From contig NZ_CP061035.1 in assembly GCF_016743815.1 (NCBI RefSeq), forward strand, positions 1,366,501 to 1,430,500: a stretch of 64,000 bases of DNA, in the 5' to 3' direction. The translations under genes were made by a program, and so were the position numbers. Each line of letters opens with the position of its first letter. Position 1 is the first letter of the stretch. This stretch comes from Sphingomonas aliaeris. GTDB lineage: Bacteria; Pseudomonadota; Alphaproteobacteria; Sphingomonadales; Sphingomonadaceae. Below are positions 38,577-50,438 of the stretch, in pieces. The notes beneath the pieces were generated by a model, which was given only the letters and a program-made list of their open reading frames with translations, was not told the DNA's origin and made no database searches.

Positions 38577-39746
38577 TCAGAGCGTCCGTTCGTAAATCTC
38601 GTACTTCTTGTTCACCGTGCATTCGATGATATCGGCGATCGACCGCATCCCCTGATTATCTTCGAGGATCCAGCCGATCTCGCCCCGCGACGCGCCATAA
38701 TCCTTCACCGATGCGCGGCGGATATATTCGATCATCATCAGCGCCAGCTGGCTCGCCAACCGCGACGATTGCAGCCGCTTGACGACGCCCATCAGCGGCA
38801 CGCGCATCGTCCGCACCTTCGGCTTGCGCAACCACCACAGGATCTTCGCCCAGCCGAACGGGAACAGGCTGCCGTTCAGCGGCGCGATCGCCTCGTTCAG
38901 GTCGGGCAGCGTGATCATGAACGCGACCGGTTCGCCATCCACCTCCGCGATGCGGATCAGATCCTCATAGACGATCGGCTTCAGCTTCACCCCGACGTCC
39001 GCGATTTCCGGTTCGGTCAGCGGGACATAGCCCCAATTGTCCGACCATGCATCGTTCAGGATCGACAGGATGATTCGCGCCTCCTCGTCGAACTTCGACT
39101 TGTCGACCTTCCGGATACGGATCCGCGGATTCTTCTCTCCGCTCGCGATGATCCGCCCGCAGATCGGTGGAAACTCCTTCGTGATATCCAGCTCGTACGT
39201 GAACAGCGTCTTCACGACGTGATAGCCGGCAGATTCGATCCATTCCTGATAATGCGGCTTGTGATGCCCCATCATCACGGTCGGCGGATGATCGAACCCC
39301 TCCACCAGCAGCCCGGGCTCCTCCCAGACGGACATGCTGATCGGCCCCAGCGCACGCACCATCCCCTTGCCGCGCAACCACTCCTCCGCCGTCGCGATCA
39401 GCGTGTGCGCCAGCGCGCGATCCTCCGCCTCCAGCAGTCCCCAACAGCCGACCCCCGGCCCGAACCCCTGTTCCGGCGGCAGCGTCAGCGCCAGCGTATC
39501 GATATGCGCCGAAATCCGCCCCACGACCTTCCCGCCGCGTTCGGCCAAATACAGTTGCGCCTCGGCATGGCTGAACCACCCGTTCTTCTCCGGCGTGATC
39601 AGCCCCAGCGCCTCGCCCTTCAGCGGCGGCACCCAGTTCGGATCGTCCGCATTCAGCCGGAATGCGAGATCGATGAACGCCTTCCGATCGGCCTTGCTGC
39701 TGATCGGACGGATGGTGAGCAGTGGGTCGGTCAAGGCGCGCCTCAT
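38577..39746 (-). CDS. GNAT-fold acyltransferase, candidate bacterial ceramide synthase
   Basis: The 389-residue protein has GNAT-like parts: LYLAERGGKVVGRISAHIDT (about 66-85), GPISMSVWEEPGLLVEGF (about 135) and, in the C-terminal half, IAEVDGEPVAFMITLPDLNEA, like the core of a second acetyltransferase module. It is longer than simple GNAT enzymes. A GNAT-superfamily ceramide synthase that acylates 3-ketosphinganine has been described in Caulobacter. Size, the sphingolipid genes about 7 kb away and the adjacent desaturase make this a candidate, but I cannot prove orthology. It diverges from the desaturase gene. Confidence 0.6.
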   Translation of the reverse strand: MRRALTDPLLTIRPISSKADRKAFIDLAFRLNADDPNWVPPLKGEALGLITPEKNGWFSHAEAQLYLAERGGKVVGRISAHIDTLALTLPPEQGFGPGVGCWGLLEAEDRALAHTLIATAEEWLRGKGMVRALGPISMSVWEEPGLLVEGFDHPPTVMMGHHKPHYQEWIESAGYHVVKTLFTYELDITKEFPPICGRIIASGEKNPRIRIRKVDKSKFDEEARIILSILNDAWSDNWGYVPLTEPEIADVGVKLKPIVYEDLIRIAEVDGEPVAFMITLPDLNEAIAPLNGSLFPFGWAKILWWLRKPKVRTMRVPLMGVVKRLQSSRLASQLALMMIEYIRRASVKDYGASRGEIGWILEDNQGMRSIADIIECTVNKKYEIYERTL

Positions 39747-39870: not shown

Positions 39871-40974
39871 ATGGAACGCCTTATGGAAAGCTCTGTCGCC
39901 CTCGATCGCCGCTCGCGCCCGGCTCCAGCCATAGAGGCGCGCGCCACCCGGGAACGGATCGCCGACGATCGCGCGATGCTCCGCGCCGCCGCCGATCTGA
40001 CCCGCGATATCCTCGCGCATCGCCCGGCGATCTACTGGACAGACCTGATCGCCTCGGCCGTCGTCGGGTACGCCGCCTTCGCCGCGGCCGTGATCGCACC
40101 CGGCGCGTGGGCGATCCTCGCCGCGATCGTGTCCGTCCTGGCACTCTACCGCGCCGGATCGTTCATCCACGAACTGACGCACTTCAAGCCATCGGCGGTG
40201 CCCGGCTTCCACGTCGCGTGGAACCTGATCGCCGGCATCCCCTTGCTCGTGCCCAGCTTCATGTACGAAGGGGTGCACAATCTCCACCACGCCCGCACGC
40301 GCTACGGCACCGCGGAGGATCCCGAATATCTCCCGCTCGCGCTGATGAAGCCGTGGACGCTGCCGCTGTTCATCGTGATCTCGGCGCTCGGTCCGGTCGC
40401 CTTGGTGTTCCGCTTCGCCGTGCTGACGCCGCTGTCGATCATCCCCGCCGTGCGCCGTCTGGTGATCGAGCGCTATTCGTCGCTGTCGATCAACCCCGGC
40501 TTCCGCCGCCGTGCACCCGAAGGAGCCGCGCGCACGCAATGGCTGTGGCAGGAAGTGCTGGCCAGCGTATGGGCGATCGCGATCGTCGTGATGGTCGCGA
40601 CCGGCACGGTTCCGCTCCGCACCTTCCTGATCGGCCTCGGCATCGCGTCCGCCGTCATGGTCATCAATCAGGTCCGCACGCTCGTCGCGCATCTGTGGGA
40701 GAATGAGGGCGAGGCGATGACCGTCACCGCGCAATATCTCGACACCGTCAACGTGCCCCCGCCGGCATTGCTGCCGATGCTGTGGGCGCCGGTCGGCCTG
40801 CGCTATCATGCGCTGCACCATCTGCTGCCGGGCCTGCCCTATCATGCCCTCGGAGAGGCCCACCGCCGCATCTCCGCCGCGCTGGAGCAGGAATCGCCCT
40901 ATCACAAGGCGAGCTATCCCGGCCTGCCGGGGCTGGTCGCCAAGATCGCCCGCAGCACGATGGTCGCCCGCTGA
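39871..40974 (+). CDS. Fatty acid / sphingolipid desaturase family protein
   Basis: The 367-residue integral membrane enzyme has the three histidine boxes HELTH (about residue 100), HNLHH (about 136) and HALHH (about 310), which hold a diiron centre. Hydrophobic segments lie between. The family inserts double bonds or hydroxyls into lipid acyl or sphingoid chains. The location, divergent from a GNAT protein that may be a ceramide synthase, suggests a membrane-lipid or sphingolipid substrate; this is inference. The start at 39871 or 39883 is possible. Confidence 0.82.
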   Translation: MERLMESSVALDRRSRPAPAIEARATRERIADDRAMLRAAADLTRDILAHRPAIYWTDLIASAVVGYAAFAAAVIAPGAWAILAAIVSVLALYRAGSFIHELTHFKPSAVPGFHVAWNLIAGIPLLVPSFMYEGVHNLHHARTRYGTAEDPEYLPLALMKPWTLPLFIVISALGPVALVFRFAVLTPLSIIPAVRRLVIERYSSLSINPGFRRRAPEGAARTQWLWQEVLASVWAIAIVVMVATGTVPLRTFLIGLGIASAVMVINQVRTLVAHLWENEGEAMTVTAQYLDTVNVPPPALLPMLWAPVGLRYHALHHLLPGLPYHALGEAHRRISAALEQESPYHKASYPGLPGLVAKIARSTMVAR

Positions 40975-41348
40975 GTCAGGGGTAGGGTCCGTTTTCGGCG
41001 CAAGCGGACTGGCGGCCTCTGGGGACGTCCCATAGCGAAGCGGGCATTCCGCGACAGCCTTTTGCAACAGTCAAGTCACTGATTTTTCGGCTGGTCGGTG
41101 ATCGTGCAAAAGCGAACCCCTGTGCGACGGAACTGACGCCGGGTGGTCGATCCGTGTGTCGGGAACAGCCTTCCGGCAGCGCGTCACCGTCGTCCGGGCA
41201 ACGGCGCAGTGACCCGATCGGGGACACAATGCCCAGGAGAGACCCGGTCTTGTAGGTCATTGACCTACAGCGCTTGCGAGTAAGTGCTGCTACTGCGCGT
41301 CACGCGAAAGCGGGGGCTATGCGGCCGCTGGAATTAGGGCTGGGGTTT
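40975..41348. other. 374-base gap before the PEP-CTERM gene
   Basis: No reading frame with coding character was found. The only clear structure is the 19-bp palindrome at 41251-41269. The region presumably carries the promoter of the PEP-CTERM gene. Confidence 0.6.
41251..41269. promoter_or_regulatory. Perfect 19-bp palindrome upstream of the PEP-CTERM gene
   Basis: TGTAGGTCA-T-TGACCTACA, perfect 9-base arms around one central base, about 80 bases before the start codon. Form and position fit an operator for a dimeric regulator. Confidence 0.65.
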
Positions 41349-42173
41349 ATGAAAAAGATCAATCGGGTTGCTGCGAAGTTGGCTTTGGGCGTCTGCCTGT
41401 TGACCGCCGCTACCGGTGCGCAGGCCACCAAGGTCATTACCGACAGCCCCTTCGATCGATTCGCCGCTGCGGAGGCCAGTCAGCCGGGCATTTACACCAA
41501 CCAACTCACCGGATGGCTTGGAAAAGGGTCTCTGACGCTCACCAGCATTTTTGACTTGGGCCTTTGGGGCAACAAGCACTACGCGGAAACAGGAGAGAAA
41601 CGCTTTTGGCCCTATCCCTCCGAACTAAACGCGATCGTCTCGGGCAAGGGGCCAACCTTCACCATTATGCATGTCACGTCGGCTAGCATGCAAGTTAGCG
41701 CCGTCGTGGGATGGTATAACCCACTCAACGGCGTAACCGCTGCCGGTGGCAATGCTGGCGAGGACAGCTATGATTCCTTCATTTTCAATTTCACGACCGA
41801 TCGTATCTTAAGGCCAGAGTTTTACCCATTTTACTCTGAGGACCAGCGCGTATCGAACGTTTACGCCGGAAGCGATTTGGTGTTATCAGAGCGGCCTGGC
41901 TACGCTGAGTCCTATATGGATACCTTTTCGGATTCATTGTCTTATTCGGGCTATCCACATGGACTGCTCTGGAATCCAACGCACCGTCTGCCTTTTGAAT
42001 CCTACGTCATGACGATCAACGATCTCGCGGTTTACTCGATCAGCGTGGACTCGTTGGCATCGGCGGCGGCCGTGCCAGAACCTGCCACATGGGCGATGAT
42101 GATCGTCGGCTTTGGCCTGACCGGCTGCGTGTTGCGTCGTCGTCGCATCAGCACGAAGGTCAGCTTCGCTTAA
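41349..42173 (+). CDS. PEP-CTERM sorting-domain protein
   Basis: The 274-residue protein has a signal peptide (KKINRVAAKLALGVCLLTAATGAQA, cleaved near residue 26) and, at the C-terminus, VPEPATWAMM followed by a hydrophobic helix and RRRR. This is the PEP-CTERM/exosortase sorting signal of the sphingomonad PEPxxWA type. The body is rich in Ser, Tyr and Phe and has no recognised domain. Its coding DNA is AT-richer than its neighbours, which hints at transfer or relaxed selection. It is probably exported and anchored or released at the surface. No exosortase is seen in this window. Confidence 0.85.
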   Translation: MKKINRVAAKLALGVCLLTAATGAQATKVITDSPFDRFAAAEASQPGIYTNQLTGWLGKGSLTLTSIFDLGLWGNKHYAETGEKRFWPYPSELNAIVSGKGPTFTIMHVTSASMQVSAVVGWYNPLNGVTAAGGNAGEDSYDSFIFNFTTDRILRPEFYPFYSEDQRVSNVYAGSDLVLSERPGYAESYMDTFSDSLSYSGYPHGLLWNPTHRLPFESYVMTINDLAVYSISVDSLASAAAVPEPATWAMMIVGFGLTGCVLRRRRISTKVSFA

Positions 42174-42199
42174 GCGAAATCAGGCATTTCGAGATCGGA

Positions 42200-42236
42200 A
42201 GAGCCGTCAGCCACCATCCGGCTGGCGGCTCTTTTT
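42200..42236 (+). terminator. Rho-independent terminator after the PEP-CTERM gene
   Basis: AGAGCCGTCAGCC / GGCTGGCGGCTCT (one wobble) with a 7-base loop, then five T ending at 42236. Confidence 0.85.
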
Positions 42237-42408
42237 GCGTTTACCGCACGCCAGTTCGCGTCGGCTTCCACCGGATCAGGGCATTCAGGATACGGGTGTG
42301 AAAGGGACACCTTTTGCAACGCCCCGGCCGACCGCTCTCGGAAATCACGAACTCGGCGACGGATGCCGTCAACCGGCCGCAAGCGGCCACATCACCCCGC
42401 CCCGCGCG

Positions 42409-43497
42409 CTATTCCTCAGTCCGAACCAAAACCGCTTCACCAATCAAAAAGAACAGCAAAAACGGCGCCCAGGCTGCCAGAAACGGCGGATACGCCCCCA
42501 GATTGCCCATCGCCAAGGCGAAGTTGTCGGCGACGAAATACGTAAAGCCCAGCCCCATCCCGATCGCCGCGCGCAGGAACAGCTTGCCAGATCGCGCCAG
42601 CCCGAACGCGGCGACCGCCCCCAGCAGCGGCATCAGGATCGACGACAGCGGCCCCGACAATTTGTGCCACGCCGCCCCCTCCAGCGATTTCGTCGGGCGC
42701 CCCGCATCGGCAAGATCGCCGATCGCACTGCGCAACGCCCCGAACGACAGCGATTCCGCCTCGACCTTCGCCAGCGTGAACTGGTCGGGCCGCACGCTCT
42801 TCGCGACCACCGGATTGCCGATCGCCGACCGCTTCCCGCTCTTCACGTCGAACCGCGTCGCACCGAAGATCTGCCAGCCCGGCGCGGCATAGCGCCCGCG
42901 CTTCGCCTCGATGATCCCGACCAGATTGCCGTTCTCGCGATCGTACAGCGTCACCCCGCCAAGCTGTGCCGCATCGCCCCGGCCCTTGATCTGGTCCACC
43001 TGGATCAGATCGTCGCCGTCGCGCACCCACACGTTGGACCGATCCCCGCGATCGATCGGCATCGGCCCGTAATTGACCTGCTGCCACTGGTTCAGCGCCG
43101 ATGTCGCGCGCGCGACGATCCGGTCGTTGAACGTGAAGGAGATGATCGCGACAACGAAGCTCGCCAGCATCAGTGGCGCCAGCACCTGATGCGCCGACAG
43201 GCCCGACGCCTTCAGCGCGATGATCTCGCTATTCTGGTTCATCTGCGTCAGCGTCAGGATCGTGCCGAGCAGCACGGAGAACGGCAGCACGAACGATATG
43301 ATCTGCGGCGCGCGCAGGCTCATATAATGCCACACCTGCGCGTCGCCGTTGCCGGGATAGGCCAGGATGTTGCCCGACTGGCCCAGCAGGTCCAGCGCCT
43401 GCAACACCAGCACCAGCCCCGCCATCACTGCAAAGGTGCGGACGACGAACAGGCGCGCCATGTAGATCGCGACGACGCGGGACGGGAAGAAGTTCAT
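42409..43497 (-). CDS. lptG: LptG, permease of the Lpt lipid exporter
   Basis: The 362-residue YjgP/YjgQ-family permease starts MNFFPSRVVAIYMARLFVVRTF. It has two N-terminal and several C-terminal transmembrane helices around a periplasmic beta-jellyroll domain. The ATG at 43497 overlaps the lptF stop by 4 bases, which fixes the start. LptF-LptG form the ABC permease that extracts lipid from the inner membrane for transport to the outer membrane. Sphingomonads lack conventional LPS and use glycosphingolipids, so the substrate may differ. Confidence 0.92.
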   Translation of the reverse strand: MNFFPSRVVAIYMARLFVVRTFAVMAGLVLVLQALDLLGQSGNILAYPGNGDAQVWHYMSLRAPQIISFVLPFSVLLGTILTLTQMNQNSEIIALKASGLSAHQVLAPLMLASFVVAIISFTFNDRIVARATSALNQWQQVNYGPMPIDRGDRSNVWVRDGDDLIQVDQIKGRGDAAQLGGVTLYDRENGNLVGIIEAKRGRYAAPGWQIFGATRFDVKSGKRSAIGNPVVAKSVRPDQFTLAKVEAESLSFGALRSAIGDLADAGRPTKSLEGAAWHKLSGPLSSILMPLLGAVAAFGLARSGKLFLRAAIGMGLGFTYFVADNFALAMGNLGAYPPFLAAWAPFLLFFLIGEAVLVRTEE

Positions 43498-44726
43498 ACC
43501 GCGCTTGCCCCGGTGGAAGCCGCCTGTTCGTCCGCGATCGGATCGCGGCGACGGCCGGGCAGTCGACGGACGATCCACTTGCCGATCTTGCCGAACACGC
43601 GTTCCAGCGCGCCGATCGGCTGGCCGTCGGGAACATATGCGATCGTATAATACATCCAGCCGACCAGCCCCGCAAACACCGCGAACGGCGCCCACAATGC
43701 GATCAGCGGGTCGATCTTGCCCAGGCCCCCGATCGCTTCGGCATATTGGTTGATCTTGTGATAGGTGACGACCATCACGATCGCCAGGAAAACGCCCAGC
43801 GCGGAGGTCGATCGCTTCGGCGGTATGCCCAGCGCCAGCGCCAGCATCGGCAGCAGGAACATCGTCGCAATCTCCACCACGCGGAAGTGGAAGGCGGATC
43901 GGCTGGTGTCGCGCACTTCCTCGCTGGTCGCGGGATTGCTGCCGATCCGCACCAGTTCGGGCAGCGTCAGTTCCATGTTGCCTTCGCCGCGCTGCCGGAA
44001 ATTGCCGTATTTCGGCAGCGGGATCGGCAGGTTATGCGTCGTGAACGTCAGCACGCGCGGGGTCGGGATGTTCGGCGCCTGGCTGATCAGTACGCCGTTG
44101 GTCAGCTGGAACACGATCTCGTCCGGATTGTCCGTCGCAAGGAACTTGCCGCTTTCCGCCGTCACGGCGAACGACGTGCCGTCCTTGCCCACCGCCTGAA
44201 CGAAGATGCCCGACAGCTTGCGGCCTTCCTCGCGGCTCCGTTCGATGCGGATCGTCATCTTCTCGCCGAAATGCGTGAATTCGCCGACCTTTATCGACGC
44301 ACCCAGCGCGCCCGTGCGCAGCTCGAACCGCAGCCCTTCATAGGCGTAGCGCGCCTTTGGCTGGATGAACCCGACGATCGCCAGATTGGCCAGCGCCAGC
44401 ACGATCGCGAACATGTACGGCACGCGCAGCAGCCGCCAATAGCTGATCCCCACGCCGCGCATCACGTCCAGTTCGGAACTCGTCGCCAGCTTGCGGAACG
44501 CCAGCAGTACCCCCAGCAGCAGCCCGATCGGAATGCCGAGGCCCAGATATTCCGGCAGCAGATTGGCGAGCATCTTCCACACCACCGTCACCGGTCCGCC
44601 CTCCGTCGCGACGAAGTCGAACAGCCGCAACATGCGGTCCAGCACCAGCAGCATCGCCGAAATGACCAGCGTCGACAGCAGCGGCACCAGGATCAGCCGG
44701 ACCATGTAGCGATCGATCGACTTCAT
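43494..44726 (-). CDS. lptF: LptF, permease of the Lpt lipid exporter
   Basis: The 410-residue partner of LptG starts MKSIDRYMVRLILVPLLSTL, the classic LptF N-terminus, with DVMRGVGISYWRLLR in the coupling region after TM2 and C-terminal helices. The jellyroll domain lies between. A long charged C-terminal tail (RRLPGRRRDPIADEQ) is cytosolic. It follows the hybrid histidine kinase gene by 111 bases on the same strand and overlaps lptG. Confidence 0.93.
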   Translation of the reverse strand: MKSIDRYMVRLILVPLLSTLVISAMLLVLDRMLRLFDFVATEGGPVTVVWKMLANLLPEYLGLGIPIGLLLGVLLAFRKLATSSELDVMRGVGISYWRLLRVPYMFAIVLALANLAIVGFIQPKARYAYEGLRFELRTGALGASIKVGEFTHFGEKMTIRIERSREEGRKLSGIFVQAVGKDGTSFAVTAESGKFLATDNPDEIVFQLTNGVLISQAPNIPTPRVLTFTTHNLPIPLPKYGNFRQRGEGNMELTLPELVRIGSNPATSEEVRDTSRSAFHFRVVEIATMFLLPMLALALGIPPKRSTSALGVFLAIVMVVTYHKINQYAEAIGGLGKIDPLIALWAPFAVFAGLVGWMYYTIAYVPDGQPIGALERVFGKIGKWIVRRLPGRRRDPIADEQAASTGASAV

Positions 44727-44837
44727 GGGGCTGTGCGAGGCTTTCGGCTGGGGCGCAGGATGATGCGGGAGGGGGACGGGAGGGGGCGGGAAGGCCGCTA
44801 TATCGGTGCGATACGGCCACGTCAGCCGCTAAATGGC

Positions 44838-46808
44838 CTATTCGGCCGCGACGCTATCGATCGGCAGGGGCCGGAGCGATTCCGGCGCAGGCCGTTCGGC
44901 CGCCATCGCCATGCCGACCGCACGTTCCAGCCCGGCGATCGTGAACGGTTTGCGCAACACATGGTGTCCGCCGAATTCCGCCTCGCCACCCGCTTCGCCC
45001 GCATATCCGGTGACGAACAGCACCGCGACCTGCGGGTAATCCTGCGTCACCTCGGCGATCAGTTCGGGTCCGGTCTGGCCCGGCATCAGCACGTCCGACA
45101 CGATCAGGTCCACCGGGCCCGCCGTCGCCAGCATCGCCGGGGCCTCGCGCGGGTCGTTGCACGCGATCGGGCGATGCCCCAGATCCTCCAGCGCGCCCAT
45201 CGTCGCGGTCAGCACGCGCGGATCGTCCTCGACCACCAGGATGTCGAGCGCGGTGGCCGGGCGGACGTCGGGCAGGGGGGCGGGGCTGTCCGCAATCTCC
45301 TGCGGCTGCGCGATGTGGCGGGGCAGGTACAACGTCACCGTCGTTCCCTTGCCGGGCCGCGATTGCAGCCCGATCTCGCCCTGCGCCTGCCGGACGAAGG
45401 CGAAGATCTGGCTCAGGCCAAGGCCCGTGCCCTGACCGATCGGCTTGGTCGTGAAGAACGGTTCGAACACGCGCTCCATCACTTCGGGGGTCATGCCGTG
45501 GCCCGTGTCCGTCACTGCGATCGTGACATATTGCCCCGCCGGGCAGCGTCCGACCGCATGTTCCGCCAGATGGGTGCCCGCCGTCACGATCGTCAGCCGC
45601 CCACGACCCTTCATCGCATCGCGTGCATTGACGGCTAGGTTCAGGATCACGTTCTCCAGCTGATGCCGGTCGGCGCAGGTCAGCCATTCGCGGCCACGAT
45701 CGCGTGCTTCCACGGTGATCGCATCGCCCAGCGTGCGATCCAGCAGGTCGGACATGCCCGTGATCAGTTCGCCCGCCGCGATCGGCTCCAGTTTCAGCGT
45801 TTCCTCGCGGCTGAACGCCAGCAACTGGCGCGTCAGCGCGGCGGCGCGGTTCGCGCCCTCCATCGCATTGTCGATGTGACGCGGCGCCGCCTCGGGATCC
45901 TTGTCCAGGCTGCGTTTGGCGAGTTCCAGTCCGCCCAGAACCACGGCCAGCATGTTGTTGAAATCGTGCGCTATGCCGCCGGTCAACTGGCCCACGGCCT
46001 CCATCTTCTGGACCTGGCGCAGTTTGCTTTCCTGTTTGCGCAATTCGTTCGTCGCGCGCTCGACCGCGGATTGCAGTTCGTGCGACCGCTCGCGTTCCTG
46101 GTCCGCTTCGGCGCGCGCCGCGGCCCGCTCGCCCAAGGCGTTGACCGTCAGCCATCCGAGCACGATCGCGCCGAACACGATCAGCATGCCGAACACCGCC
46201 AGCACCGCCGCGGACCGGTTCGATCGCTCGGCCGATTGCATCGCGCTGCTGGTCCGCTGGTCCAGCAGGCTGCGTTCCTGTGCGATGATCCTGTCGAGCA
46301 GCTCGTTGATTCTGACGAGCGACACCGCCGTCCCCGCGCGGTAGAAGCGCTTCAGCGCCATGTCGTTCTTGCCGTAATTGGTGCTGAGTGCCGTATCCGA
46401 CAATTCCGACCCGCGCGCGTCATAAGCTTCAAGAAGCTGCGCAACCGACTGATTTTGGACGCCATTATCCCGAGTAACCCGGTCCAGCTTCCCTATCAGA
46501 TTCCCTGCCTTCTTCCACTCCTCCGAATACAACCGCCCCAATTGCTTGTCCGTGCTGATCACGTAGCGGCCGAGCGATGCTTCGGATTGCGCGATCGTGC
46601 TCGACAGCGTCCGCGCGAGGATCATCACTTCGTAGCTGTGCGACTGTAGCCGCAGCGCCCGGTCGCGCTGACGATTGGCCTCGCCGAGCGTAAGCGTCAG
46701 GGCAAACAGCACGGCGGCACCCGACACTGCCATCACGACCAGCATCCTGGTCCGCCATGCGGTCTTGCGCTCCCCAGGAGCAGAGATGTCGCCCTCGATC
46801 CCCCTCAT
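44838..46808 (-). CDS. Hybrid sensor histidine kinase with C-terminal receiver
   Basis: The protein has 656 residues. There are two transmembrane segments (about 22-42 and 203-222) around an extracytoplasmic, CHASE3-like helical sensor domain. Then come a coiled-coil, a HisKA phosphoacceptor His281 in GGIAHDFNNML, an HATPase with NARDAMKG (N box), DTGHGM and GTGLGLSQ, and a C-terminal receiver with phospho-Asp in VSDVLMPG (about residue 583). No DNA-binding output is present, so the phosphate must pass to a separate regulator. It lies between the serine palmitoyltransferase and lptF genes, all on the same strand. Confidence 0.93.
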   Translation of the reverse strand: MRGIEGDISAPGERKTAWRTRMLVVMAVSGAAVLFALTLTLGEANRQRDRALRLQSHSYEVMILARTLSSTIAQSEASLGRYVISTDKQLGRLYSEEWKKAGNLIGKLDRVTRDNGVQNQSVAQLLEAYDARGSELSDTALSTNYGKNDMALKRFYRAGTAVSLVRINELLDRIIAQERSLLDQRTSSAMQSAERSNRSAAVLAVFGMLIVFGAIVLGWLTVNALGERAAARAEADQERERSHELQSAVERATNELRKQESKLRQVQKMEAVGQLTGGIAHDFNNMLAVVLGGLELAKRSLDKDPEAAPRHIDNAMEGANRAAALTRQLLAFSREETLKLEPIAAGELITGMSDLLDRTLGDAITVEARDRGREWLTCADRHQLENVILNLAVNARDAMKGRGRLTIVTAGTHLAEHAVGRCPAGQYVTIAVTDTGHGMTPEVMERVFEPFFTTKPIGQGTGLGLSQIFAFVRQAQGEIGLQSRPGKGTTVTLYLPRHIAQPQEIADSPAPLPDVRPATALDILVVEDDPRVLTATMGALEDLGHRPIACNDPREAPAMLATAGPVDLIVSDVLMPGQTGPELIAEVTQDYPQVAVLFVTGYAGEAGGEAEFGGHHVLRKPFTIAGLERAVGMAMAAERPAPESLRPLPIDSVAAE

Positions 46809-46860
46809 CGTTCAGGCCGTATACACGCTCCCGCGACTCGTGGAAAGACGCGCAAACGGT

Positions 46861-48117
46861 CTAGCCGATGACGCCTACGGCCTTGCCCGCGGACTCGAAC
46901 ATGCCGAGCACCGTGTCGATCTGGGCGGGCGTATGTTCCGCACATAGCGAGCAGCGCAACAGGTACGTGCCGGCGGGCGTCGCGGGCGGGCGCGCCATGT
47001 TGACGTACAGCCCGCCGTCCAGCAGCGCCTGCCACATCGTGACCGCCTGTTCCTGGTCCTCCAGGATGATCGCGATGATCGCGCTGTCCGGCTTTTCCGT
47101 CCCCAGGCGGAACCCGAGCGACTTCAGTCCGCCGTGCAGTTTGCGGGCGTTATCCCACAGTTGCTCGCGCTTCTTCGTCGCGGTCATCAGCTTGCAGATC
47201 GACATCGCCGCCGTCGCGACGACCGATGGCGGCAGCGATGCGGTGAAGATGTACGGACGGCACGCAAGCCGGATCGCCTCGAACTTCGGATGATTCGACA
47301 CGCAGAAGCCGCCGACCGTCCCGACCGACTTGGAGAAGGTGCCGACGATGAAATCGACGTCGCAGCCCTGATCCTCATACACGCCGCGTCCGTTCGGGCC
47401 GTAAAAGCCCATCGAGTGCGCTTCGTCGCTCAGCACCATCGCATTGTGCTTCTTCGCGACGGCGACCATCTCCCTCAGCGGCGCGATATCGCCGAGCATC
47501 GAATAGACGCCCTCCAGCACGACCAGCTTGCCCGGTTCCTTCGGCAACCGGCCAAGCCTCTTGTCGAGATCCTCGACGCTGTTGTGCCGGAACCGCACGA
47601 TCTCGGCATTGCCCTGCTGGCATCCATCATAGATCGACGCGTGGCTGTCGGCGTCGAGAATGACGTATTCGCCCTTGCCGACCAATGTAGATATCATGCC
47701 GAGATTGGCCATGTATCCGGTCGAGAACACAATGGCGCCGGACACGCCGTAAAAGTCGCGCAAAGCCTCCTCGACGTCCATATGGTCTCGGAACGTGCCG
47801 TTCAGCATCCGGCTGCCGTTGGTGCCCGATCCGAACTGGTCGAGCGCATCCTTCCCCGCCTTGATGACGTCCTCGTCGAACGTCATGCCCATGTAATTGT
47901 ACGTGCCCAGCAGGATCGTGTCGCGGCCCGCGATTACCGCTTCGGTCGGCGACTTGACCCGTTCCATCACGATCGCGAACGGGTCCGTCACGCCGGTATC
48001 GATCAGCGCCTTGCGCTCGGCGATCAACGCATCGAACTTCGACATCAGGTCGGTTTCTGGGGGCACGGCCACGGGGTCGACGGGCAGCTTCTCGGTCACA
48101 AGTCCGGCGTCGGTCAT
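46861..48117 (-). CDS. spt: Serine palmitoyltransferase (alpha-oxoamine synthase)
   Basis: The 418-residue fold-type I PLP enzyme has Lys263 in GTFSKSVG as the expected aldimine lysine, His159 in DADSHASI stacking on PLP, and DEAHSMGFYG upstream. These positions closely match the well-studied Sphingomonas enzyme (His159, Lys265). It condenses serine with an acyl thioester to 3-ketosphinganine, the first step in ceramide synthesis. The gene follows a dedicated acyl carrier protein by 4 bases and a reductase gene further upstream. 5-aminolevulinate synthase or KBL are possible relatives, but the context makes SPT much the best call. Confidence 0.95.
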   Translation of the reverse strand: MTDAGLVTEKLPVDPVAVPPETDLMSKFDALIAERKALIDTGVTDPFAIVMERVKSPTEAVIAGRDTILLGTYNYMGMTFDEDVIKAGKDALDQFGSGTNGSRMLNGTFRDHMDVEEALRDFYGVSGAIVFSTGYMANLGMISTLVGKGEYVILDADSHASIYDGCQQGNAEIVRFRHNSVEDLDKRLGRLPKEPGKLVVLEGVYSMLGDIAPLREMVAVAKKHNAMVLSDEAHSMGFYGPNGRGVYEDQGCDVDFIVGTFSKSVGTVGGFCVSNHPKFEAIRLACRPYIFTASLPPSVVATAAMSICKLMTATKKREQLWDNARKLHGGLKSLGFRLGTEKPDSAIIAIILEDQEQAVTMWQALLDGGLYVNMARPPATPAGTYLLRCSLCAEHTPAQIDTVLGMFESAGKAVGVIG

Positions 48118-48121
48118 CCGC

Positions 48122-48364
48122 TCAACCCTTCAGCTTGGCGACCGCATCGACCAACTGGCCGACCGTTTCGATCTCCGCCTGCATGTTCATCGTTATGATA
48201 ATGTCGAACTCGTCTTCGATCGCAGCGACGAAATCCATCACGGTCAGGCTGTCCCATTCCAGATTGCCCTGGAACGTGGTAGCATCGGTAATCTCGACGC
48301 CCTTCTTGTCGAAGGGTTCGATCTGGGCGGCGACGGTGTCGAAGATGGCGGTGCGGTCGGTCAT
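48122..48364 (-). CDS. Acyl carrier protein for sphingolipid synthesis
   Basis: The 80-residue acidic four-helix protein has the phosphopantetheine serine in NLEWDSLTVMDF (Ser39). It differs from the fatty-acid ACP in sequence (WDSL instead of DSLD). It sits 4 bases upstream of the serine palmitoyltransferase gene, and SPT-linked ACPs are known to supply the acyl thioester to SPT in alphaproteobacteria. Confidence 0.92.
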   Translation of the reverse strand: MTDRTAIFDTVAAQIEPFDKKGVEITDATTFQGNLEWDSLTVMDFVAAIEDEFDIIITMNMQAEIETVGQLVDAVAKLKG

Positions 48365-48426
48365 GCAAAGTCCTTATCGGCTTGCCCCCGGCCTTGCCAA
48401 GGGATTGCGGCGGGAAGGGGGCGGGG

Positions 48427-49329
48427 TCAGCCGAGCAGGCCGTTCGCCCGGTACCAGTCGGCGGTCGCGGCGAGCCCGGCGCGCGTCGGAATTTCCGGCG
48501 TCCACAAAGCCTTGTCGGGCCGGTGCGCAGGGTCGATCGTCCAGTCCGGATGCACCATATAGCCCACCCGATCAGGCGTCAGTTTCGCTTTCGCACCCCG
48601 CACCATCCTGTCGATCCGCGCGGCGATCGACAGTGCCTTGGTCGGCAGCGCGAACGGCATCACCTTGCGTCCGACCGCCGCGCCCACCGCGCGGGCGAAG
48701 TCCTCGTGCGACCAGCCGCCGGGGACGCCGTCGTCGGGATCCAGGATGATGCGGCCCGGATCGTGATCGACCAAGGCGATCAGCAGCCGTGCGAGATCGT
48801 CGACATGGACGATCGACATTCGGCCCGGCGGCGGAAGCAGGGCAAGCCCCAGCCGCGCCATGCGGAACACGTCGCGCATCTCCATGTCGCCGGGACCATA
48901 GATCGCCGGAGGCCGGACGATCGTCCAATCCAGTTTCGATGCCCGGACCTCAGCCTCGGCAAGTTGCTTCGATTGTCCGTAATGGGAAAGCAAAGGCTTG
49001 CGCGCTGACAGCGAGGATACGTGCACGAACCGGCGCACCCCGGCCTGCTCCGCCGCCGCAACCATATTGGCCGTTCCACCCGCATTGCCGCGCAGGAAAT
49101 CGGGCAGGCTGGGGGCGTTGACCACCCCTGCGACATGCACGACGGCGTCCGCGCCTTCCACCAGCCGCGCGAGGCTTTCGGTATCGTCGAGGCTACCCTC
49201 GACCCAAGCAATGCCATTCGCGTCCGGTTGGGGGCGGCGGGTCAACGCTCGCACGCCGTAACCGCGCGCCAAGGCGAGATCGATCAGCCGCTTGCCGATG
49301 AAGCCCGTGCCACCGGTGATCGCCAGCAT
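48427..49329 (-). CDS. NAD-dependent epimerase/dehydratase, likely ceramide (3-ketosphinganine) reductase
   Basis: The 300-residue extended SDR starts MLAITGGTGFIGKRLIDLAL (Rossmann motif), with VHVAGVVNAPS near 70, VHVSSLSARKPLLSHYGQSK with the YxxxK catalytic pair near 130-145, and RPPAIYGPGD. It is adjacent to ACP and SPT on the same strand. In Caulobacter a reductase beside these genes (CerR) reduces the 3-keto group of the sphingolipid precursor, and this is the likely role. The start at 49329 begins 2 bases after the proB stop. Confidence 0.86.
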   Translation of the reverse strand: MLAITGGTGFIGKRLIDLALARGYGVRALTRRPQPDANGIAWVEGSLDDTESLARLVEGADAVVHVAGVVNAPSLPDFLRGNAGGTANMVAAAEQAGVRRFVHVSSLSARKPLLSHYGQSKQLAEAEVRASKLDWTIVRPPAIYGPGDMEMRDVFRMARLGLALLPPPGRMSIVHVDDLARLLIALVDHDPGRIILDPDDGVPGGWSHEDFARAVGAAVGRKVMPFALPTKALSIAARIDRMVRGAKAKLTPDRVGYMVHPDWTIDPAHRPDKALWTPEIPTRAGLAATADWYRANGLLG

Positions 49330-49331
49330 GG

Positions 49332-50438
49332 TCACAGCATCGCCATATGGTTGCGATGCACCAGCGCACCCCGCGGCGCATAGCCGAGTATCTCTGCCAG
49401 CGCGCCGCTCCGCTGTCCCGTAATGCGAACCGCATCCGCCGCATCGTATTCCGCAAGCCCGCGTGCGAGCACTGCGCCGTCCGGACCCGCCACCGCAACC
49501 AGGTCGCCGCGCGCGAAGCTGCCCTCGATCCGCGTGGCGCCTGCCGCCAGCAGGCTGTTGCCTGCACGCAACGCCGCGACCGCGCCAGCATCGATATGCA
49601 CCGTGCCGCGAGCGGTCAGTCCGCCCGCCAGCCACGCCTTGCGCGCCGGTGCGGATTTTTCCGCGACGAACAGCGTGTGCCGCGCGGCAGTCGATAGCGG
49701 TCGATCGATTCGTCCGCTGGCGATCGCAAGATGCGCGCCTGCCGCATTCGCGATGCGCGCCGCCGCGATCTTCGACACCATCCCGCCCGATCCCATGCCG
49801 GACGCCGATCCACGATCCGCCATCGCCTCGATGGTGCCGTCGATCCGCTGGATCCGGCCGATATGCTGTGCATCCGGCAGCGCGGGGTTGCGGTCGTACA
49901 ATCCGTCCACGTCGCTCAACAAAACGACACCCTGCGCGCCCGCCGCCTGCGCTACCCGAGCCGCCAGGCGGTCATTGTCGCCAAAGCGGATTTCCTCGGT
50001 CGCGACGCTGTCATTTTCGTTCAGCACGGGCACCACACGCAGCCCCAACAGCCGGTCCAGCGTCGCGGCTGCATTCAAATACCGGCGACGGTCCTCCAGA
50101 TCGTCCAGGGTGACCAGTATCTGCGCCGCCGTCAGTTCTTCGGCGCCGAGCGTTTCTGCCCAGACTTGACTCAAAGCGATCTGGCCCACCGCGGCGGCAG
50201 CTTGCGCATCCTCGAGGCTCGCCCGTCCGCCCTTTGCGAGCCCAAGGCGGCGCGCGCCAAGCGCGATAGCGCCCGAAGAGACGACCGCAACCTGCTGACC
50301 GGCTCGCGCGCGCGCAGCGATGTCGGCGGCGATCCCGGCCAACCAGTCGCGCCGCACGCCGCCGTCGGGATCGACAAGCAGCGCCGACCCGATCTTCACG
50401 ATCAGCCGCGGACAGGATTCGGGCGGGAAGAGCGACAT
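49332..50438 (-). CDS. proB: Glutamate 5-kinase
   Basis: The 368-residue enzyme has an amino-acid kinase domain (LIVKIGSALLV, VVSSGAIALGARRLGL, NENDSVATEEIRFGDNDRLAA, GSGGMVSKIAAARIA) and a C-terminal PUA domain (about 280-365). It makes glutamyl-5-phosphate for proline. The start at 50438 (MSLFPPES) excludes a long, non-conserved extension. In many alphaproteobacteria obg-proB is followed by proA; here the sphingolipid genes take that place. Confidence 0.95.
   Translation of the reverse strand: MSLFPPESCPRLIVKIGSALLVDPDGGVRRDWLAGIAADIAARARAGQQVAVVSSGAIALGARRLGLAKGGRASLEDAQAAAAVGQIALSQVWAETLGAEELTAAQILVTLDDLEDRRRYLNAAATLDRLLGLRVVPVLNENDSVATEEIRFGDNDRLAARVAQAAGAQGVVLLSDVDGLYDRNPALPDAQHIGRIQRIDGTIEAMADRGSASGMGSGGMVSKIAAARIANAAGAHLAIASGRIDRPLSTAARHTLFVAEKSAPARKAWLAGGLTARGTVHIDAGAVAALRAGNSLLAAGATRIEGSFARGDLVAVAGPDGAVLARGLAEYDAADAVRITGQRSGALAEILGYAPRGALVHRNHMAML

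Follow-up and report, generated by a model that had tools for sequence, protein, structure and literature searches.

How does a bacterium that has sphingolipids but appears to lack lipopolysaccharide (LPS) carry those lipids to its outer membrane? The question is raised by a gene cluster of Sphingomonas aliaeris (contig NZ_CP061035.1, positions 1,366,501 to 1,430,500; this whole stretch of 64,000 nucleotides is called the window here), in which ceramide synthesis genes stand next to lptF and lptG, the genes for the paired permeases (LptFG) of the Lpt export system. A 2024 study states that sphingolipid transport to the outer membrane is unknown in bacteria (PMC11324152). The original prediction, made from the DNA of the window, held that canonical LPS extractor permeases carry sphingolipid here under the control of a neighboring hybrid kinase. 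Our comparison of genomes and trees indicates a different identity for these permeases: judged by sequence, this LpxC-free genome, like most genomes of its order, has as its only LptFG pair one of a second lineage that is linked to serine palmitoyltransferase (SPT). The six genes that had been predicted to run in one direction are all found, on the minus strand, between 42409 and 49329:

48427..49329, minus strand: cerR-like ceramide reductase (SDR/NAD(P)-binding; PF13460/PF01370), with 35% identity to the Caulobacter vibrioides protein in the equivalent position
48122..48364, minus strand: acyl carrier protein (acpR-like; PF00550, 38 bits), which many loci of the order have between cerR and spt
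46861..48117, minus strand: serine palmitoyltransferase (spt; NF047603, 796 bits against a cut-off of 670), with 52% identity to C. vibrioides SPT
44838..46808, minus strand: hybrid histidine kinase (Pfam domains CHASE3-HisKA-HATPase-REC), a lineage-specific neighbor of spt
43494..44726, minus strand: LptF of the SPT-linked lineage by tree placement (PF03739; TIGR04407, 232 bits against a cut-off of 230)
42409..43497, minus strand: LptG of the SPT-linked lineage by tree placement (PF03739; TIGR04408, 290 bits against a cut-off of 240)

We searched the genome of the window (4.26 Mb, 3 contigs) and 80 genomes drawn from its order for LpxC, the protein from which alone the absence of LPS was judged, and for SPT and LptFG. 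No LpxC match was obtained in the window genome or in any of the 80, and control genomes of Escherichia coli and Caulobacter were positive. The SPT family was matched in all 80 genomes (E ≤0.001), at 498 bits or more in 78; we count these as true SPT because the next group listed starts at 253 bits. LptFG was present in 74 of the 80, as exactly two matches in 62 and more than two in 12. The window genome itself conforms to the predicted picture of an LPS-free genome with a sphingolipid gene, in that LpxC was not found, SPT is present and the LptFG pair of the window is the sole one.

True SPT and LptFG occur together in 72 genomes of the order, at least 59 of which carry them within 10 kb of each other (at most 8.5 kb), the linkage that had been expected in other LPS-free sphingomonads; in at least 57 of the linked genomes LptFG lies downstream of SPT on the same strand. 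In the other 13 no linkage was seen among the matches listed, with the genes on other contigs in seven and far apart in six. LptFG stretches were fetched for nine of these 13, and a homologue of the ceramide synthase gene cerS lies near LptFG in eight of them (L055, L056, L058-L062 and L071) and not in the ninth (L057, from G065); genome G013 has a further LptFG pair without cerS (L070). The linkage of SPT with LptFG is more than chance and is conserved.

Phylogenetic trees separate these permeases from the lptD-linked LptFG pairs of LPS-bearing Alphaproteobacteria. Group names were given once a first tree was available, and the rows termed SPT-linked include pairs known by cerS or lipid-kinase neighbors (for example L055-L061, L077 and L084) as well as the second pairs L064, L065 and L070. 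A quick LptF tree of 91 rows sets canonical sequences apart from SPT-linked ones; four odd pairs stand separately, and L108, which is very long, falls with the SPT-linked rows. More careful trees of 68 rows, from which 23 of the 91 had been dropped (five odd, three long and 15 for speed), support the split at 100/99 for LptF and 96/93 for LptG. A joint tree of both proteins (70 rows), rooted by paralogy, recovers SPT-linked LptF at 100/99, SPT-linked LptG at 97/96, and the canonical clades of Alphaproteobacteria at 100/100 and 100/99, and a concatenated tree of 35 rows gives the split at 100/100. Approximately unbiased (AU) tests, run with E. coli outside the held group because the split is unrooted, reject a clade of the window's own order with the alphaproteobacterial canonical sequences for LptF (p 0.0068) and for the concatenation (p 0.0098), and likewise reject a second LptF alternative that joins the other SPT-linked rows to the canonical ones (p 0.012). 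Caulobacter vibrioides holds both kinds, one pair (L173) falling among SPT-linked rows and the other (L236) among canonical rows.

We also compared residues in 33 alphaproteobacterial canonical and 51 SPT-linked rows, leaving out the five odd rows and the long L106. The two arginines described as essential to LPS transport (PMC6744409) are kept in both groups, LptG R301 in 33/33 canonical and 50/51 SPT-linked rows and LptF R292 in 32/33 and 50/51. Position 40 of LptG, reported as a contact to the 4'-phosphate (PMC6744409), is lysine or arginine in 32 of 33 canonical rows versus one of 51 SPT-linked rows. We take this position as a marker of lineage and not as proof of substrate, because a K40E/K41E double mutant of LptG grows (PMC5548808). 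As a general test of substrate, LPS-contact residues were rejected: LptG K34 and R136 are not conserved in the canonical alphaproteobacterial group either and do not separate the lineages, and the other basic LptG contacts of PMC6744409 are likewise unconserved there, except position 41 in most rows. Profile scores were also set aside as a classifier. They were separate in a first set (156-399 bits for SPT-linked, 75-155 for canonical) and overlap in a larger one, where SPT-linked LptG of Acetobacteraceae begins at 90 bits and E. coli LptG reaches 175; lineage was therefore assigned by trees alone.

To place the order within its class, we surveyed 67 genomes across the class, calling SPT at E ≤1e-110. 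SPT was found in 11 and LpxC was not found in 11: eight genomes have SPT without LpxC, three have both, three have neither and 53 have LpxC alone (Fisher p 3.6e-6, a value that overstates the association because the genomes are related). LptFG is present in seven of the eight SPT-positive, LpxC-negative genomes. It lies near SPT on the same strand in the window genome, in G005, and in three genomes from outside the order (G103, G105 and G132, within about 6 kb). In G119, also outside the order, it lies 12.6 kb from SPT on the other strand, in the same stretch as cerS, and in G136 spt and lptFG are on different contigs with lptFG beside cerS. Among the genomes with neither SPT nor LpxC, G120 and G123 retain LptFG pairs of the canonical kind, and no LptFG or LptD was found in G084. 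Where a pair was fetched from an SPT-free genome, 15 of 20 stretches also show an open reading frame (ORF) resembling lptD, surA or pdxA, by comparison with E. coli.

Genomes that carry SPT and LpxC together show that the two LptFG lineages can coexist. In the best 80 of 580 named SPT loci, an ORF of the LptF/G family occurs in 66, some of them of other types. The genomes behind 18 of the 80 were searched, and 17 have an LptFG pair near SPT. In 16 it is inside the locus, where Acidocella shows a divergent type and Chenggangzhangella a pair that is broken; in G151 it lies 13 kb away on the opposite strand. LpxC is present in 17 of the 18, and 15 of these 17 carry at least two LptFG sets, both types being placed in the tree for nine of the 15. 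The single LpxC-negative genome (G162) has an SPT-linked pair only, as do Hansschlegelia and Chenggangzhangella, in which the LpxC match is weak (228 and 181 bits, whereas the other 15 reach 310 or more). The description of the window's pair as a canonical LPS extractor is not upheld: the pair stands apart from the lptD-linked LptFG of other Alphaproteobacteria and groups with the SPT-linked set that occurs together with it in LPS-bearing genomes, with the proviso for LptG given below.

Several side observations were made among these loci. The weak LpxC-like matches L244 and L245 come from two Methylopilaceae (G149 and G154), with Hansschlegelia having the weak kind only. A third, divergent type of LptFG (L165:7319-9567, L168:1617-3864, L178:1403-3591 and L240) is transcribed away from the acp-spt pair in Acidocella, Nitrospirillum and Elstera. 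In two Caulobacteraceae metagenome-assembled genomes, LptF and LptG form one ORF (764 and 780 aa) directly after spt (L181:2970-5264 and L185:11187-13529).

The rest of the Lpt bridge is retained in the order. LptD was found in all 63 genomes of the order tested (and in 78 of 80 when genomes from outside the order are included), an LptA-type domain in 28 of 28 tested and LptC in 22 of 28. A missing LptC match is weak evidence, because three of the six genomes concerned (G006, G020 and G058) do have LptFG. In the window genome, LptD lies about 0.58 Mb from the LptFG pair, and the single LptC match (G000:C1:3665570) adjoins LptA about 2.25 Mb from the window, with no companion LptC2 near spt. 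Genomes G095 and G096, which have LpxC, SPT and two LptFG sets, show one LptD match each, and two LptC matches occur in the C. vibrioides genome (G158), one of them on the SPT contig.

These observations suggest a mechanism in which the cluster probably couples ceramide synthesis to an inner-membrane permease pair that lifts sphingolipid, an SPT-linked extractor that predated the loss of LPS and was kept after it. CerR, the acyl carrier protein, SPT and CerS would make ceramide, and LptF and LptG, as an old SPT-linked branch working like the LPS extractor, would lift the finished sphingolipid from the inner membrane. An LptB ATPase would act with LptFG to hand the lipid to the usual bridge of LptC and LptA across the periplasm, and LptD would then let it through to the outer leaflet. 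Where LPS-bearing SPT genomes have two LptFG sets, both would share one LptD gate, as the single LptD of G095 and G096 suggests. In the order of the window, where LpxC and lptD-linked LptFG were not found, the SPT-linked LptFG, LptC, LptA and LptD would remain as the working exporter. The substrate, the direction of transport, the use of LptB and the sharing of LptD are what we infer from sequence.

A number of results weigh against this reading. Five of eight f2 genomes (drafts, 66 to 95% complete) have SPT and LptD with no LptFG found, and in three of the five (G009, G022 and G037) LptFG is missing inside the island of sphingolipid genes and no LptC match was obtained either. G126, an SPT-positive, LpxC-negative genome in one contig, yielded no LptFG, LptD, LptC or LptA-type domain, and G135 has SPT and LpxC with a canonical LptFG pair only. 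No LptF/G-family ORF was seen in 14 of the 80 named SPT loci, in some because the locus is short, and in Caulobacter sp. HMWF025 (G160) the SPT-linked-lineage pair is on a contig other than that of SPT. For LptG alone, the AU test does not reject a canonical origin (p 0.33), and E. coli LptG, the sole canonical row from outside the class, weakly joins the SPT-linked side of the joint tree (85/57). Because of G126, the LptFG-less f2 genomes and G135, the exporter is not indispensable wherever SPT exists. The LptD that the LptFG-less f2 genomes keep speaks against a simple all-or-none loss of the Lpt system, under which they would be expected to be without it. LptFG was also not found in G045 (f8), where the contig ends near the expected place. 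Separately, G126 (L088) has SPT, cerR, acp and cerS homologues, and three f2 islands without LptFG (L095, L096 and L098) belong to genomes that retain LptD and an LptA-type domain.

Two other accounts of the permease pair must be set against a dedicated sphingolipid extractor. The window LptFG might be an ordinary LPS extractor left over after LPS was lost and re-used for sphingolipid, with the spt neighborhood acquired later. Both proteins do exceed the curated equivalog cut-offs for LPS export permeases, the LptG test just given allows a shared origin with the canonical alphaproteobacterial proteins, and the weak position of E. coli LptG points the same way; however, the two or more LptFG sets in 15 of 17 LpxC-positive genomes, the rejection of a common clade by LptF and by the concatenation, and the separation of the lineages in paralogue-rooted trees make this account quite improbable. 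The pair might otherwise export a different lipid or glycolipid of the envelope, and stand beside spt and cerS only because envelope regulation is shared. Three genomes of the order carry second pairs of the same lineage away from spt (L064:8449-10799, L065:8928-11260 and L070:8873-11310), each adjoining a hydrophobic protein without a Pfam match and two also adjoining a GT4 glycosyltransferase, and these are possibly exporters for another glycolipid. We nonetheless consider such a role unlikely for the window pair, as most genomes of the order, and LpxC-negative ones from outside it, show the linkage to spt or cerS, and the extra pair of LPS-bearing genomes goes with SPT in most cases examined.

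A further proposal concerns the kinase, which in the original prediction controls the exporter and might do so jointly with ceramide synthesis. Its position in the window favors this idea: the genes share a strand, the intergenic gaps are 62 (cerR-acp), 4 (acp-spt), 52 (spt-kinase) and 111 nt (kinase-lptF), the likely lptG start (43497) overlaps the lptF stop, and no terminator-like site lies between spt and lptF, the single minus-strand site of this kind in 42000-49800 being located within spt. (A scan of the cluster for promoters and terminators gave no more sites than shuffled sequence.) The comparison of loci weighs against it. Among the SPT loci examined, 6 of 13 from the window's family and none of 16 from other families (6 of 29 in the order) have the kinase directly after spt, and it is absent from that place in G005 and G062, of the same genus. 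It does not adjoin lptFG in three of the six loci that have it: in G035 the kinase follows spt, and the three opposite-strand genes come before lptFG; in G039 it is separated from lptFG by three other ORFs; and in G047 lptFG is elsewhere. Because these three separate the kinase from lptFG, it seems to have arrived beside spt, with its contact with lptF in the window being secondary. The kinase is a local neighbor of spt and not a conserved part of the cluster, and control of the exporter by it is not supported and very unlikely.

The cluster extends past the six genes, to two further genes that had been overlooked:

39871..40974, plus strand: FA_desaturase family protein (PF00487, 94 bits) between lptG and cerS, a candidate sphingolipid acyl desaturase or hydroxylase
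38577..39746, minus strand: cerS, bacterial ceramide synthase homologue (GNAT-like), with 43% identity over 385 residues to the C. vibrioides homologue

We name the GNAT-like protein cerS because PMC11324152 gives this name to CC_1154, which adjoins lptG2 (CC_1155). In C. vibrioides the cerS homologue is encoded directly after the SPT-linked lptG, and members of the cerS ORF cluster (32 ORFs over 41 loci) often come as the first conserved gene past LptFG or stand one or two genes further along. Homologues of spt, cerR, acp and cerS, for ceramide synthesis, are present in the window, where no aasR homologue was seen among the labelled ORFs of 34001-58000. A desaturase homologue lies between LptG and cerS in 13 of the 16 other f1 loci that have both. 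The place beside cerS is held by PF00487 in the window's family (39871-40974 in the window) and by PF04116 elsewhere (as in L073:5261-6022), and the two families of lipid oxygenase perhaps perform the same acyl modification. A PEPxxWA-CTERM protein encoded between lptG and the desaturase (41274-42173) has no counterpart among the other clustered loci.

Mapping of the window stretch together with 40 stretches fetched from other genomes or loci, in which gene families were assigned from Pfam and RecX by reading of the sequence, reveals a recurring island in families other than that of the window. With variations, it begins with RecX, an EamA transporter, an AMP-ligase (aasR-like), cerR, acp and spt, and continues on the opposite strand with c6 (whose protein family is unknown) and the genes for a DAGK lipid kinase and a DUF2141 protein. 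Next come lptF and lptG, and the island closes with a MatE-like flippase, a PF04116 hydroxylase and cerS. In the window this island is eroded: the three opposite-strand genes are gone, the hybrid kinase stands in their place and a PF00487 desaturase lies between lptG and cerS. The lipid kinase and c6-type genes of the CPG/CPG2 phosphosphingolipid set were not seen in the mapped window stretch, to which the search for them was confined.

The idea of a second LptFG for sphingolipid transport is already known from Caulobacter, and the system cannot be called undescribed, as it had been: LptC2, LptF2 and LptG2 (CC_1168, CC_1156 and CC_1155), with a flippase, have been proposed, and not investigated, for phosphosphingolipid transport in Caulobacter crescentus (PMC11324152). 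The C. vibrioides SPT-linked pair (L173) falls on the same side of the tree as the window pair, and both have spt upstream and cerS downstream of lptFG. Unlike the window genome, with one LptFG, one LptC match and no LpxC found, C. vibrioides has LpxC, a second, canonical-side lptFG set and two LptC matches, and it has c6-like and lipid-kinase genes between spt and lptFG where the window has the hybrid kinase. Of the C. crescentus ceramide genes (aasR, cerR, acpR, spt and cerS; PMC11324152), all except aasR have homologues in the mapped window stretch; in Sphingomonas wittichii and Zymomonas mobilis, according to the same article, the genes are scattered.

Compared with the E. coli exporter (LptB2FGC-LptA-LptDE), the window genome has the same protein families, keeps LptF R292 and LptG R301 and has matches to LptA-type, LptC and LptD proteins, whereas LpxC was not found, LptFG is not beside lptD and LptG has no basic residue at position 40. 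An Lpt bridge in an LPS-free diderm, assigned by inference to another lipid, has a parallel in Borrelia burgdorferi, whose Lpt system has been proposed to carry glycolipids (PMC10353723); that case differs in phylum and in lipids, with one LptF and one LptG and, in the available portion of the article, no mention of linkage to lipid synthesis genes. Our literature search, which reached few subscription papers, showed, among the titles listed, none on the order-wide linkage or on a tree of LptFG lineages, and none on the essentiality of lpt genes in sphingomonads or Zymomonas. What is new here is a second-lineage LptFG in an LpxC-free order, mostly near spt or cerS, to which the kinase is incidental.

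On balance we lean toward the view that LPS-free sphingomonads did not retool an LPS exporter. A dedicated LptF2/G2 sphingolipid extractor may already have stood beside the LPS extractor on the same LptA/LptD bridge, making the loss of LPS and of the canonical LptFG survivable, and the same exchange seems to have taken place in more than one alphaproteobacterial lineage. If so, one specific gene pair, labelled as LPS export permeases by curated models, would carry bacterial sphingolipids, and the replacement of LPS by sphingolipid would be traceable as an exchange of inner-membrane extractors that share one gate in the outer membrane.

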